From assembly GCF_000317895.1 (NCBI RefSeq), contig NC_019567.1, positions 3,596,001-3,660,000 of the forward strand: DNA of 64,000 nt. Reading direction: 5' to 3'. Below, piece after piece: positions 41,583-54,166 of this stretch (positions within the stretch are counted from its first letter, which is position 1; each line of letters starts with the position of its first letter). Under the pieces are notes generated by a model that was not told the DNA's origin, did no database searches, and saw only the letters and a list, made by a program, of their open reading frames with translations. This DNA comes from Bdellovibrio bacteriovorus str. Tiberius. GTDB taxonomy: Bacteria > Bdellovibrionota > Bdellovibrionia > Bdellovibrionales > Bdellovibrionaceae. Made by a program: the position numbers and the translations under genes.

Positions 41583-41766
41583 CGATAATTTGTCGAATAT
41601 GACACCTCCGCGCCGCGCAAATTTGTTTGTAAACGGTTGGTTTTCATTAAGTTGTTGCAACCACAGATTCTTTAGAAATAACTTCACTGTGTTTCCCCGT
41701 ATATGTTGCGAATAGGGCGCAGCGTTTCTACCAGGCACCTCAAATGCCTGACTATGGAGGTTCTTT

Positions 41767-42636
41767 GTGAAGTTGACCGCAGTTTCTCTTCTGGTGCTGG
41801 TGTCCACGCTTTGTGGCCAAATCGTTTTTGCAGCTCCTTCTTCCGGCGATGTTCCTTATTATGGCGAAAAATTCCACCACGATCTGGCGACTGGAATTTC
41901 CAACGACGATCTGAAAAAGAACATTCAGTTTGTCCTTCGCAGTTTCCACCTTCGTGTGAACGGCAGCTACGACCAAATCGTTAACGGCTGCAACGGCGAC
42001 AACTGCTATCAGCACGTTTCCTTGGGTTACGACGGTGCCCGTACCTTCCTTCTGGGTTCTTTCTATTTGGTTGATGAAGGTCACGGCGAATATGCAGTGA
42101 AAGACGTTTACTGTGATTCCATCCGCGGCGCTGCTGACTTCCGCGGCGGCAATGCTCCGGCTCCGGGCAGAATTCCGGATGGCAACATCGTGAACACTGA
42201 ACACACATGGCCACAATCCAAATTCTCTGGCCGCCACAACAAGAGCATGCAGAAAGCTGACATGCACCACTTGTACCCTACTGACAATGAAATGAACTCT
42301 ATCCGCGGCAACAACCCATTCGGTGAAGTTGTTCAGGACAGAAAGCCTTTGAAGTGCAGAGTATCCCGCTTCGGTCGCGCTTCCCAGGGTGGAGCTGACG
42401 TGTTCATGCCACCGGCAAATCACCGCGGCAATGTGGCTCGCGCTTTGTTCTATTTCTCTGTAAGATATGACATGCCAATTGATTCCCGTCAGGAAGCAAC
42501 TTTGCGTAAATGGTCCAAAGAAGATCCGATCGACGACGAAGAAATCAGCCGCAACGACGAGATCCACAAAATGCAGGGTAACAGAAACCCGTTCATTGAT
42601 TTCGCGGGTCTTGAAGATTCTATCAGTGATTTCTAG
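41767..42636 (+). CDS. endA: Exported endonuclease I
   Basis: Secreted or periplasmic nuclease that would degrade host DNA. Signal peptide AVSLLVLVSTLCGQIVFA; GTG start with GGAGG and a 6-base spacer. The EndoI catalytic region is present: VNTEHTWPQSKFSG with the His-metal motif, KADMHHLYPTDNEMNSIRGN and FMPPANHRGNVARALFYFS. The 289-residue length fits. Two cysteine pairs (NGCNGDNCYQ; YCDSI and LKCRV) suggest disulfides. A small hairpin (CAGGCA-TGCCTG) lies in the leader. Confidence 0.93.
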   Translation: MKLTAVSLLVLVSTLCGQIVFAAPSSGDVPYYGEKFHHDLATGISNDDLKKNIQFVLRSFHLRVNGSYDQIVNGCNGDNCYQHVSLGYDGARTFLLGSFYLVDEGHGEYAVKDVYCDSIRGAADFRGGNAPAPGRIPDGNIVNTEHTWPQSKFSGRHNKSMQKADMHHLYPTDNEMNSIRGNNPFGEVVQDRKPLKCRVSRFGRASQGGADVFMPPANHRGNVARALFYFSVRYDMPIDSRQEATLRKWSKEDPIDDEEISRNDEIHKMQGNRNPFIDFAGLEDSISDF

Positions 42637-51493: not shown

Positions 51494-52786
51494 ATGTCAT
51501 CTAAAAACAATTATAAGTTGCTAAAACTGCTCGTTTTTTCAGGAGCTTGCCTGGTAGGCCTTTATTCTCTGTTAGGTTTTACGTCCTCTGCGGACAGCCA
51601 AGAGGTTCAAGCTCACAAGAAAATCAAATCTCAACTTGAACAGCGCACTCAGCTGGCGAAAGCCATCGGTGAAAAAGTTCGCGCCAATGATCTGCCAGAG
51701 TCTCTTAAGATCCCATGGAACGGCGAAGAACACGCTGTGAAAATGAACTACACCATCGACGACACCCTTCAGCGCGAAGCCGACCGTCTGCTGAAAGCCT
51801 ACAAGCCTGACTACGGCGCGGTCTTCATGATCGACGCAATGACCGGAGAAGTTCTGGTAATGTCGAGCTTCCAGCGTGACGATGCCGATGCTCCGAACCT
51901 GAATCTGCAAGCAACCTTCCCGGCAGCTTCCGTGTTCAAGGTTGTCACTGCCACGGCGGCAGTTGATAAAGCTGGCGTCAGCCCTGAAAGCAAAATCCGC
52001 TACAACGGCGGCGCCTACACTTTGTACAAGAAAAACGTTCTTTCTGACAAAGTGACCCGTTGGACCAACGTGATCACCCTGAAAGACGCCTTCGCCCGCT
52101 CGATCAACACCGCTTTCGGTCGTCTGAGCATCGAAAACCTGCACCCGGAAGATTTGAACGAATACGCCAACCGCTTCATGTTCAATCAGGAAATCCCCGC
52201 AGACTTCCCGGTTGAAATGGGTGTGGCTTACGTTCCACCAGGCAAAGGCTTTGAAATGGCCGAAGTGGCTTCCGGTTACAACAAAACCAACCGCATGAGC
52301 CCGGTTCAAGGCGCGATGATCGCTGCCGCTGTCGCCAACGACGGTCAAGTTGTGATCCCGTACCTTGTGCGCAATGTGACCGATGAACAAGGCGAATCCC
52401 TGTACGAGGGTTCAACTTTGAACAACGGCAACATCATGACCAAAGAATCCGCCGCAAAAGTGCGTGAGCTGATGGAAAGAACCGTTCTGGCAGGAACTTC
52501 CCGCCGTTCGTTCCGCCCGATCACCAAAGACCGCAAATTCCGCGAAATCGAAATGGGCGGTAAAACCGGTCACCTGACTGGCGACAACCCACGTGGTCGC
52601 ACTGACTGGTTCGTGGGCTACGCACAAGATGGCGAACGCAAGATCGCCGTTGCTGCCATCACCGTGAACAAAAAATTCTGGACAGTAAAATCCGCGCACT
52701 TGGGTCAATCCATGTTCCGCAAATACTTCGGCCCAGTTGTTTCGAATCAACCTAAAAACGGGCGCGTGGTTTCTTCCACCAAGTAG
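51494..52786 (+). CDS. Penicillin-binding transpeptidase
   Basis: Membrane-anchored peptidoglycan transpeptidase. A single N-terminal anchor (LLKLLVFSGACLVGLYSLLG) is followed by a short region and the transpeptidase domain with the three motifs SVFK, SIN (ARSINTAFG) and KTG (GGKTGHLTG). There is no glycosyltransferase and no large dimerization domain, so this 430-residue form is shorter than PBP2 or PBP3. ATG 51494 has a weak Shine-Dalgarno. It may act in wall growth or in prey-wall modification. The terminator lies in the repeat element that follows. Confidence 0.9.
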   Translation: MSSKNNYKLLKLLVFSGACLVGLYSLLGFTSSADSQEVQAHKKIKSQLEQRTQLAKAIGEKVRANDLPESLKIPWNGEEHAVKMNYTIDDTLQREADRLLKAYKPDYGAVFMIDAMTGEVLVMSSFQRDDADAPNLNLQATFPAASVFKVVTATAAVDKAGVSPESKIRYNGGAYTLYKKNVLSDKVTRWTNVITLKDAFARSINTAFGRLSIENLHPEDLNEYANRFMFNQEIPADFPVEMGVAYVPPGKGFEMAEVASGYNKTNRMSPVQGAMIAAAVANDGQVVIPYLVRNVTDEQGESLYEGSTLNNGNIMTKESAAKVRELMERTVLAGTSRRSFRPITKDRKFREIEMGGKTGHLTGDNPRGRTDWFVGYAQDGERKIAVAAITVNKKFWTVKSAHLGQSMFRKYFGPVVSNQPKNGRVVSSTK

Positions 52787-52798
52787 GCTCCCGGATGC

Positions 52799-52932
52799 GG
52801 CAGAGGGAGGCTAAAGCCGACCCCGCCGCTTCGAACACATCCTCGCTCTACACTATCAACGCTGGCTTCCGCCGGCGTTTTTTGTTTTCGCTGCGGAACT
52901 TGCGGCGGATTCGTCTTTATCCTCCCTCTGCC
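52799..52932 (-). repeat. Structured dispersed element, copy 1 (134 bases)
   Basis: The ends pair over about 31 bases (GGCAGAGGGAGG with CCTCCCTCTGCC, then TAAAG and CCGCCGC with four or five mismatches). Read on the minus strand, the core contains CGCAAGTTCCGC, AAAACAAAAAACGCC, GGAAGCCAGC, AGAGCGAGGATGT and CGAAGCGGC. The same series appears on the plus strand at 53438, while the outer stems of the two copies differ in sequence yet both pair. Confidence 0.82.
52860..52885 (+). terminator. Terminator of the penicillin-binding protein gene
   Basis: CGCTGGC pairs with GCCGGCG (one G-T pair) around TTCC and is followed by TTTTTTGTTTT. It lies inside repeat copy 1. Confidence 0.85.
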
Positions 52933-52996
52933 ACAACGACAGCTTGGTAGGACAATCAGATCATTTTAGGTTGGAGCGAAATTGCGCAGGAGCGCG

Positions 52997-53053
52997 ATGA
53001 GACTGCTTCGGGCGGTGAGTTTTGTGGTCTGTGAAATGCAAAAAGCGAAATGA
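52997..53053 (+). CDS. Possible 18-codon leader-type frame
   Basis: AGGAG lies 5 bases before ATG; the peptide would be MRLLRAVSFVVCEMQKAK. Its stop TGA lies inside the perfect terminator hairpin at 53040-53073, as in attenuator leaders. Too short for certainty. Confidence 0.25.
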   Translation: MRLLRAVSFVVCEMQKAK

Positions 53054-53073
53054 GCTTCCTCATTTCGCTTTTT
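53040..53073. terminator. Very strong bidirectional hairpin terminator
   Basis: AAAAAGCGAAATGAG pairs perfectly over 15 bp with CTCATTTCGCTTTTT around CTTC. Confidence 0.9.
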
Positions 53074-53111
53074 ATGGAATTTGAACCTCTTCGCTTTCCG
53101 AGGAGGTTCGA

Positions 53112-53231
53112 ATGCCGAACAAAACTTCGCAAGTTACTGTTCGTCGTTTTTTGAGAAGCTTTAAACGGATCCTAAGGCTAGTTTTGCTGGTTCTTGAGGT
53201 CCTTAAGAAGCTGCTCGATCTTTTTCAATAG
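53112..53231 (+). CDS. 39-residue amphipathic cationic peptide
   Basis: A perfect AGGAGG with a 5-base spacer precedes ATG. The peptide begins MPNKTSQVTVRRFLRSFKR and continues ILRLVLLVLEVLKKLLDLFQ: a basic N-terminal half and a leucine-rich amphipathic helix. In shape it resembles membrane-acting small toxins such as TisB, and it resembles the product at 11117 (R-F-K-I-L spacing, then E and K-L near the end). It lies between two structured elements, after a strong terminator. Expression and activity are unproven. Confidence 0.55.
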   Translation: MPNKTSQVTVRRFLRSFKRILRLVLLVLEVLKKLLDLFQ

Positions 53232-53437
53232 GCTGCTGAGGGTCCTTTGAGCTTCGCTCAACGTGTACACAACCCAAGGTAGGGTGAAAACCTGGAGAGG
53301 TTCTCGTTCATGGAGAAAGAGGCCCTTCAAAGGCCTCTGAATTGGGGAAGCTCGCCTATTTGTGCGCCAAACACAGATGTCATTGCTATTGAATTAACTA
53401 TCGGGGCAAAGAGGGCAAGATAGATTCGAGGTTCGAA

Positions 53438-53575
53438 GGAGCTTGGGAGGGGGCCTTAGGCCTCTGACGCAAGTTCCGCAAGCGAACCAAAAACCCCGTG
53501 CGGTAGCCAGCTGAAAACCCCCAAGAGCGAGGACTGTCCGAAGCGGCAGAGACCTAAGGCCCCCTTCCAAGCTCC
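53438..53575 (+). repeat. Structured dispersed element, copy 2 (138 bases)
   Basis: GGAGCTTGGGAGGGGGCCTT pairs with AAGGCCCCCTTCCAAGCTCC with one mismatch, extended by AGGCCTCT/AGAGACCT. The core CGCAAGTTCCGCAAGCGAA, CAAAAA, GCGGTAGCCAGC, AGAGCGAGGACTGT and CGAAGCGGC matches copy 1 read on the other strand. It ends 9 bases before the fxsA stop. Confidence 0.82.
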
Positions 53576-53584
53576 GGCGCAAAA

Positions 53585-54166
53585 CTAAGAGTCTTTCTTG
53601 CTCTCTTTGTCTTCGTGAGTGATTTCAAGAGGGGTGACATCAAGCACTTCTGCTTGGATTTCTCGTTCTTCGCGGACTTCTTCAAAGCCGCCGCCTTGAT
53701 TTCTGAATTCGTAGTAGCGGAAGCCGTTGTTGGCGTTGCCGTTACCCATGCCGCCCATTCCTGCACCGAAGCCGAAAGGTCCGCCGCCGAAATTAAAGAC
53801 TCGGGCTGAGCCTTGGGACATTTTTTTGGCCATGTAGGATTTGAATCTCCAAACCGCCAGGTGGCGCAGGCCTGGAATGAATAGAATGATGGCGACCACT
53901 CGGGCGAAGAAGCTTGGGATCAGGAACAACAAGCCTGATAGGAACAAGGCGCCAGAATGCAGGATCTTATTACCAGGTTGCTGCCCGCGCATCATCGAGG
54001 TTTGCAGGCTCATCAAAGCCACGCGGCCTACGGTGGTCATGATCAAAAAGCCCAGCAGGCATGGCAGCAGATACAGGCCCAGTGTGTTCAGGAAACCCCA
54101 CTCTTGCGCGGCCAGGATAAAGATCACCAGCTCTGCAATAATGAATGGAAATGGAATCATGATCAT
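53585..54166 (-). CDS. fxsA: FxsA-family membrane protein
   Basis: Inner-membrane protein of the FxsA family; E. coli FxsA affects exclusion of phage T7 by F plasmids. Three to four membrane segments occupy residues 1-110 (PFPFIIAELVIFILAAQEWG, LGLYLLPCLLGFLIMTTVG, LFLSGLLFLIPSFFARVVAI). A cytoplasmic glycine/asparagine-rich stretch and an acidic tail follow. The 193 residues fit. It lies 16 bases downstream of the exonuclease gene, on the same strand, and is likely cotranscribed. Confidence 0.9.
   Translation of the reverse strand: MIMIPFPFIIAELVIFILAAQEWGFLNTLGLYLLPCLLGFLIMTTVGRVALMSLQTSMMRGQQPGNKILHSGALFLSGLLFLIPSFFARVVAIILFIPGLRHLAVWRFKSYMAKKMSQGSARVFNFGGGPFGFGAGMGGMGNGNANNGFRYYEFRNQGGGFEEVREEREIQAEVLDVTPLEITHEDKESKKDS

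Follow-up and report, generated by a model that had tools for sequence, protein, structure and literature searches.

A strand-specific family of hairpin elements with a conserved core and variable complementary arms in Bdellovibrio and distant bacterial phyla

Introduction

The window analyzed in this study is a 64-kb (64,000-nucleotide) stretch of the Bdellovibrio bacteriovorus str. Tiberius genome. In it, two copies of an element occupy a gap of ~800 nt between convergent genes encoding a penicillin-binding transpeptidase and fxsA. A preliminary description of this locus had reported two look-alike copies of ~135 bases with a shared core and with outer stems that differ in sequence but pair each with its own far end. 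It proposed a selected structure, either an RNA or a transposable hairpin, of a family that it did not recognize. Here, we asked what kind of element this is, how far it extends beyond the window, and how its arms could change in sequence and remain complementary.

Two copies of the element between convergent genes

The features of the locus, in coordinates of the window, are as follows.

51494-52786, plus strand: penicillin-binding transpeptidase gene
52796-52935, minus strand: copy 1, whole
52796-52829, minus strand: copy 1, 3' (right) arm on the element strand (inverted repeat I3, pairs with 52902-52935)
52817-52915, minus strand: copy 1, covariance-model match, 74.4 bits
52829-52846, minus strand: copy 1, core 3' half, GCGAGGATGTGTTCGAAG (consensus GCGAGGACTGTCCGAAG), from sequence
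52847-52891, minus strand: copy 1, variable A-rich inner region with a small hairpin AACGC.GGC-GGAA-GCC.GCGTT, from sequence and fold
52893-52904, minus strand: copy 1, core 5' half, CGCAAGTTCCGC, exact match
52902-52935, minus strand: copy 1, 5' (left) arm on the element strand (inverted repeat I3)
53438-53575, plus strand: copy 2, whole
53438-53470, plus strand: copy 2, 5' (left) arm (inverted repeat I2, 91% complementary)
53457-53555, plus strand: copy 2, covariance-model match, 76 bits
53468-53479, plus strand: copy 2, core 5' half, CGCAAGTTCCGC, exact match
53480-53526, plus strand: copy 2, variable A-rich inner region, from sequence
53527-53543, plus strand: copy 2, core 3' half, GCGAGGACTGTCCGAAG, from sequence
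53543-53575, plus strand: copy 2, 3' (right) arm (inverted repeat I2)
53585-54166, minus strand: fxsA, stop codon at 53585, convergent

Both copies lie where they had been described, and the shared core words were found in each of them exactly as listed. Each outer stem indeed pairs with its own far end, with 85% complementarity over 34 nt in copy 1 (52796-52829 and 52902-52935) and 91% over 33 nt in copy 2 (53438-53470 and 53543-53575), and weaker complementarity extends farther outward from the left arm of copy 2. The right arm of copy 1 begins ~10 nt past the stop codon of the penicillin-binding protein gene (gene end 52786), and that of copy 2 stops 10 nt short of the convergent fxsA stop codon (53585). 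On both strands, both copies folded better than all of 200 dinucleotide shuffles (200/200, z -6.0 to -8.0). When the window was scanned with the covariance model described below, copies 2 and 1 scored 76 and 74 bits and the next best match 11 bits.

Two other structures were noted in the window. Between the element copies, at 53040-53073, lies a perfect 15-bp stem (AAAAAGCGAAATGAG...CTCATTTCGCTTTTT) flanked by A and T runs, a classical bidirectional terminator. At 41677-41774 (plus strand), a purine riboswitch aptamer (64.2 bits) is the sole above-threshold Rfam match in the window.

Copy number and distribution

The host genome (3,988,594 bp, single contig) was searched with BLAST first and then with a covariance model trained on 20 copies. 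With copy 2 as BLAST query, copy 1 was matched genome-wide at an E-value of 6.9e-6 and another copy at 1.8e-13, so the similarity of the cores is beyond chance. The covariance model, a search that the preliminary description had suggested for the genome and its relatives, identified 20 clear copies (E-values 1e-19 to 1e-9), the next match having an E-value of 0.71. The family was present in 22 of 23 other sampled members of the genus, with 2-21 copies each. In the phylum as a whole, 34 of 290 genomes and 14 of 162 genera were positive at E<=1e-5, and the distribution outside the genus was patchy. The earlier reading of the two window copies is supported by these results, and the true extent of the family is much larger than it stated.

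The element was also found far outside this phylum. Across a collection that covers 85,000 species, an exact-core DNA pattern retrieved 64 stretches, which belonged to Bdellovibrio MAGs and otherwise mainly to Coriobacteriia (Olsenella, Gordonibacter, Adlercreutzia, Enteroscipio, Collinsella and Enorma), as well as to Krumholzibacteriia, Myxococcales and Omnitrophota. The core AGTTCCGCAG...GCGAGGACTGTCCGA is identical in these taxa and is flanked by mutually pairing arms of 20-60 bases; long paired arms were present around the core in every exact-core stretch examined. With ~26 specified bases and 31 gap lengths, chance matches should be negligible (we estimate that <0.01 would be expected). 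The highest copy numbers were observed in Adlercreutzia caecimuris B7 (46) and a Coriobacteriaceae MAG (42), and adjacent inverted pairs (minus, plus) like that in the window recur in both Bdellovibrio and Adlercreutzia. No exact-core match was found in viral contigs, nor any match covering at least 80% of the core in phages and plasmids. A partial match of 19-23 nt in enterobacterial plasmids, which has neither the GTCCGA part nor paired arms, was set aside as chance.

Anatomy of the element

On the element strand, the consensus consists of a left arm, (CGC)R, AGUUCCGCAG, an inner part of 6 to ~80 nt, GCGAGGACUGUCCGAAG and a right arm, with a total length of ~100-230 nt. The core comprises 27 bases split in two halves and is nearly invariant among copies. 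Its 5' strand AGUUCCGC pairs with the 3' strand GCG(A)GGACU, leaving one bulged A and one invariant U.G wobble, and a conserved unpaired GUCCGAA comes after the 3' strand. The inner part ranges from a 6-nt loop, through a covarying hairpin (such as GUCCC-AAC-GGGAC and AUUCC-AAA-GGAAU), to an A-rich region of ~80 nt; on the element strand, the inner regions of Bdellovibrio contain 42% A vs 9% T.

The arms are near perfect over 20-35 bp within the genus, with weaker complementarity farther out. Among other families of this order they extend up to ~60 bp, with near-perfect arms at loci L156 and L157. In Bdellovibrio the arm sequence is different at each locus, and in Adlercreutzia arms are partly common to members of subtypes.

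Covariation and strand specificity

Covariation was assessed in 28 copies of one Adlercreutzia genome. Changes on both sides were observed in 27 of 39 pairs. In this same-genome set, 96.6% of cells were paired (76.9% after shuffling), double-changed cells numbered 208 (54 after shuffling), and the covariation score was 0.555, compared with 0.170 for shuffled and at most 0.112 for slid controls. The wobble pairs in the core were invariant in all 28 copies.

The mismatches within the arms revealed a clear strand preference. On the element strand, G.U exceeded A.C by 82:21 in Adlercreutzia (p 1e-9) and by 42:11 in 51 dereplicated Bdellovibrio copies (p 2e-5), both p-values being optimistic because copies share ancestry. 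A DNA palindrome would give G.T and A.C equally, and the approximately fourfold excess of G.U on one strand therefore implies that the selected form is single-stranded, either RNA or single-stranded DNA. G.T is the best-tolerated mismatch in DNA hairpins, and the excess is thus compatible with both. It is very unlikely that the element is purely a DNA palindrome, such as a double-stranded target or binding site that has no selected single-stranded form and whose symmetry is maintained by template switching during replication: the near-perfect arms of up to ~60 bp in some relatives and the outward decay of the palindromes would suit such an origin, but the ~4:1 bias on one strand, the invariant wobbles and bulged base of the core and the covarying inner hairpin all argue against it.

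The bias was equal for either direction of the neighboring genes, 26:6 where both read with the element (++) and 33:7 where both read against it (--), which implies that selection acts on the element's own strand and not on a host mRNA of which it merely happens to be part. With many copies, covarying outer and inner stems and a strand-specific wobble bias, the selected structure proposed from two copies is borne out, and we conclude with high confidence that the elements constitute a strand-specific, selected hairpin family.

Gene context and a possible host role

Many Bdellovibrio copies, including both in the window, lie within ~10-30 nt of a stop codon or tRNA 3' end. Together with the terminator-like A/T runs in some arms (L069 and the dnaJ site), this would fit a hairpin for transcription termination, 3'-end formation or mRNA stability that is read within host mRNA. 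Such a role appears very unlikely for the class, however: a T-run followed the 3' arm in only 8 of 51 copies and the other side in 9 of 51, the nearer gene reads away from the element in ~45% of host-genome copies, several of which lie between divergent genes, and orientation to genes is unfixed in Adlercreutzia (++ 17, -- 13, +- 8, -+ 5), with the strand bias equal in both directions. In a tight operon gap between genes for a VWA-domain and a TPR protein (L062 and L107), a copy was observed with the upstream stop codon beside or within its right arm.

The 3' side of the copies often adjoins a stop codon, tRNA end or promoter, and in the host genome the median gap was 233 nt on the 5' side vs 52 nt on the 3' side (p 4e-6). 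This asymmetry makes a resident RNA gene a serious rival, namely a class of host non-coding RNA with many copies, each transcribed from the element strand, with a protein binding the core and the arms serving as a sequence-free clamp selected for pairing. The wobble bias regardless of neighboring gene direction is also in line with it, since slow selection on a resident RNA would likewise yield an excess of G.U over A.C, as are the A-rich loops on the element strand and the retention of sites across species divergence; for example, four species have a copy beside the same tRNA-Leu.

Several results do not suit a resident RNA. Sigma-70-like promoters were not enriched upstream (5 of 51 copies vs 8 of 51 shuffled), a T-run terminator is not a feature of the class, and the orthologs of the tRNA-Leu site show no conservation upstream of the left arm. 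Eight attack-phase small RNAs have been mapped in B. bacteriovorus (PMC3627812), and none of their coordinates overlaps a copy in genome G005, assuming that G005 is that genome. We consider a resident host RNA rather unlikely, and the nesting and patchy distribution discussed below are odd for such a class as well.

A second short motif (AAGCAGGTACCTTTT / GAAGCAGGCACCTTTT) recurs, frequently as small clusters, in intergenic regions of several members of the genus. It lies upstream of the element at L057, L106, L133, L135 and L138 and is absent from the window.

Arm turnover between closely related species

Sites shared among three genomes (G000, G023 and G005) provided 32 ortholog comparisons, for which gapped identities were used; a first count of 185 double vs 38 single changes had been inflated by small register-shifting indels and was discarded. 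The right-arm identity was 0.93-1.00 in 13 of the 32 comparisons, 0.53-0.74 in 14 and intermediate in five. In the strongly changed cases the core (0.81-0.94) and right flank (0.88-0.99) remained similar, and random unrelated arms average 0.45. Arm complementarity was retained in all comparisons. Thus, about 40-50% of the copies at sites shared by close species have new arms: beyond the covariation noticed earlier, the arms are often replaced wholesale among close relatives. In G023, the copy at the dnaJ site carries new arms; in all three species, the flank is identical from the promoter onward. Copy 1 of the window and its ortholog in G005 share arm identities of 0.53 and 0.41 and a core identity of 0.89.

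This bimodal distribution is unlike site-by-site compensatory drift, and from it we infer, rather than observe, that both arms are renewed by copying one from the other; as a mechanism, such copying is put forward tentatively. At several loci (L007/L055 and L100), the palindrome extends into the 3' end of an adjacent tRNA, and the opposite arm contains an inverted copy of that end, which is nearly perfect in L100 and degenerate in L055.

At L155 (G091, about 1430-1760), the element was observed directly behind a tRNA gene, and ~250 nt on the 3' end of that tRNA is repeated in direct orientation, a configuration resembling an integration site.

Evidence for mobility

In the Coriobacteriaceae MAG RUG13125, elements were found inside the inner loops of others, 2-4 deep (L332-L336). 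The core-to-core steps in these concentric nests are ~44-47 nt per side.

The locus in the window appears to be lineage-specific. In most other genus members that retain the adjacent fxsA and penicillin-binding protein genes, the gap is 9-142 bp and contains no element; in G000 and G005 it is 470-800 bp and contains two inverted copies, and copy 1 is still present in G023. Two copies absent from the host genome were lost through internal deletions, not clean excisions, and no precise junction or target duplication was found at the empty and lost sites examined. Most copies of the host genome are common to three species and thus do not demonstrate recent movement.

Dispersed copies, nesting, patchy distribution and lineage-specific sites are class features of mobile elements, although movement itself was not observed, and we consider the element to be probably mobile. 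Of the two possibilities raised in the preliminary description, RNA or transposable hairpin, the mobile one is favored by the dispersed copies, the cross-phylum patchiness, the nesting and the clade-specific site. On the other hand, the target duplications it had named as the mark of a miniature mobile element were not cleanly established, and the losses are deletions rather than precise excisions.

No transposase or gene of its own was found for the element. An autonomous version carrying a gene in the inner loop was considered and rejected: half-core motifs outside intact copies proved to be nested or half copies with no gene. A link to reverse transcriptase was not supported, RVT_1 being present in 9 of 22 genomes but in neither G000 nor G023, each with 20 copies of the element, though past use is possible. 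Within the 64-kb window, the arms matched no other sequence that they might serve as guides for.

Comparison with known systems

The element resembles catalogued structured RNAs (Rfam 15; HEARO, riboswitches, ribozymes) in its conserved core and covarying stems, but differs from them in that no copy tested reached the threshold of any Rfam 15 family in searches at gathering and relaxed thresholds, in agreement with the earlier failure to recognize the family. The best match over an element had an E-value of 0.12 and a score of 20.8 vs 41 required, and the sub-threshold matches were to low-scoring microRNA-precursor and sRNA models. The attack-phase sRNAs and merRNA of B. bacteriovorus (PMC3627812) are similar in being intergenic structured RNAs of the same genus.

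REP and REPIN sequences, which are associated with RAYT (Y1) transposases, are also short, dispersed, intergenic, hairpin-forming and non-autonomous, and a strand-specific single-stranded hairpin would fit such a system. REPs are 20-40 bp long and bear a terminal tag, GTAG or CGTC, on one side (PMC3733652). Our element, in contrast, is conserved at a central core with variable ends, is ~100-230 nt long and has a core that crosses phyla; neither tag was found in Bdellovibrio copies, and among the Adlercreutzia copies only some have a GTAG on their left.

ERIC, BOX, RUP and Correia/NEMIS-type (MITE-like) repeats are likewise palindromic, intergenic and structured, with lengths of 100-200 bp. They have conserved terminal repeats and are clade-specific, whereas the terminal arms of our element are free in sequence and its inner core is conserved across phyla. 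The conserved terminal inverted repeats expected between copies of a MITE were not found, the Bdellovibrio arms differing at each locus and the Adlercreutzia subtypes sharing theirs in part.

A works-like analogy can be drawn to integron attC sites, which are likewise folded single-stranded sites containing an unpaired spacer, a bulged base and a terminal structure that varies. Unlike attC, the element has long variable outer arms and neither GTTRRRY/RYYYAAC boxes nor a cassette array; its core (GTTCCGC) reads AGTTCCGC...GCGAGGACT. By the features tested, the element is therefore not a REP, a MITE, an attC site or an Rfam family. Searches of the open-access literature for repeats of Bdellovibrio and for the core sequence itself yielded no description of it, and the family appears to be undescribed within the sources searched.

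A model for the hairpin family and its implications

On balance, the results are best explained by a family of small non-coding, non-autonomous hairpins, probably mobile at present or in the past, in which the core is the recognition site and the sequence-free arms are renewed in concert. A putative trans-acting protein or ribonucleoprotein would recognize the core as a single-stranded hairpin of RNA or DNA, and copies would spread to intergenic sites as well as to the tips of existing hairpins. The arms would stay complementary through templating of one arm on the other, by hairpin-templated copying in movement or replication, and between copying events weaker selection may act on their pairing. 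In its most specific form, this would be a class of mobile hairpins that spans phyla and combines a fixed recognition core with two arbitrary arms, which are regenerated together by arm-to-arm copying, sometimes taking in host sequence such as tRNA ends, so that a near-perfect hairpin is kept; taken as a whole, this version is somewhat unlikely.

The 27-nt core is identical in Bdellovibrionota and Actinomycetota, which suggests that something must recognize it and thus implies an undescribed nucleic-acid-processing factor. The element places long double-stranded stems beside dnaJ, rplL, tRNA and cell-wall genes in a predatory species as well as in common gut bacteria, and the way in which its paired arms are replaced in concert between close species can be tested directly as an evolutionary process. 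If the arm-copying reading is true, the element would rewrite its own arms while remaining a near-perfect hairpin.
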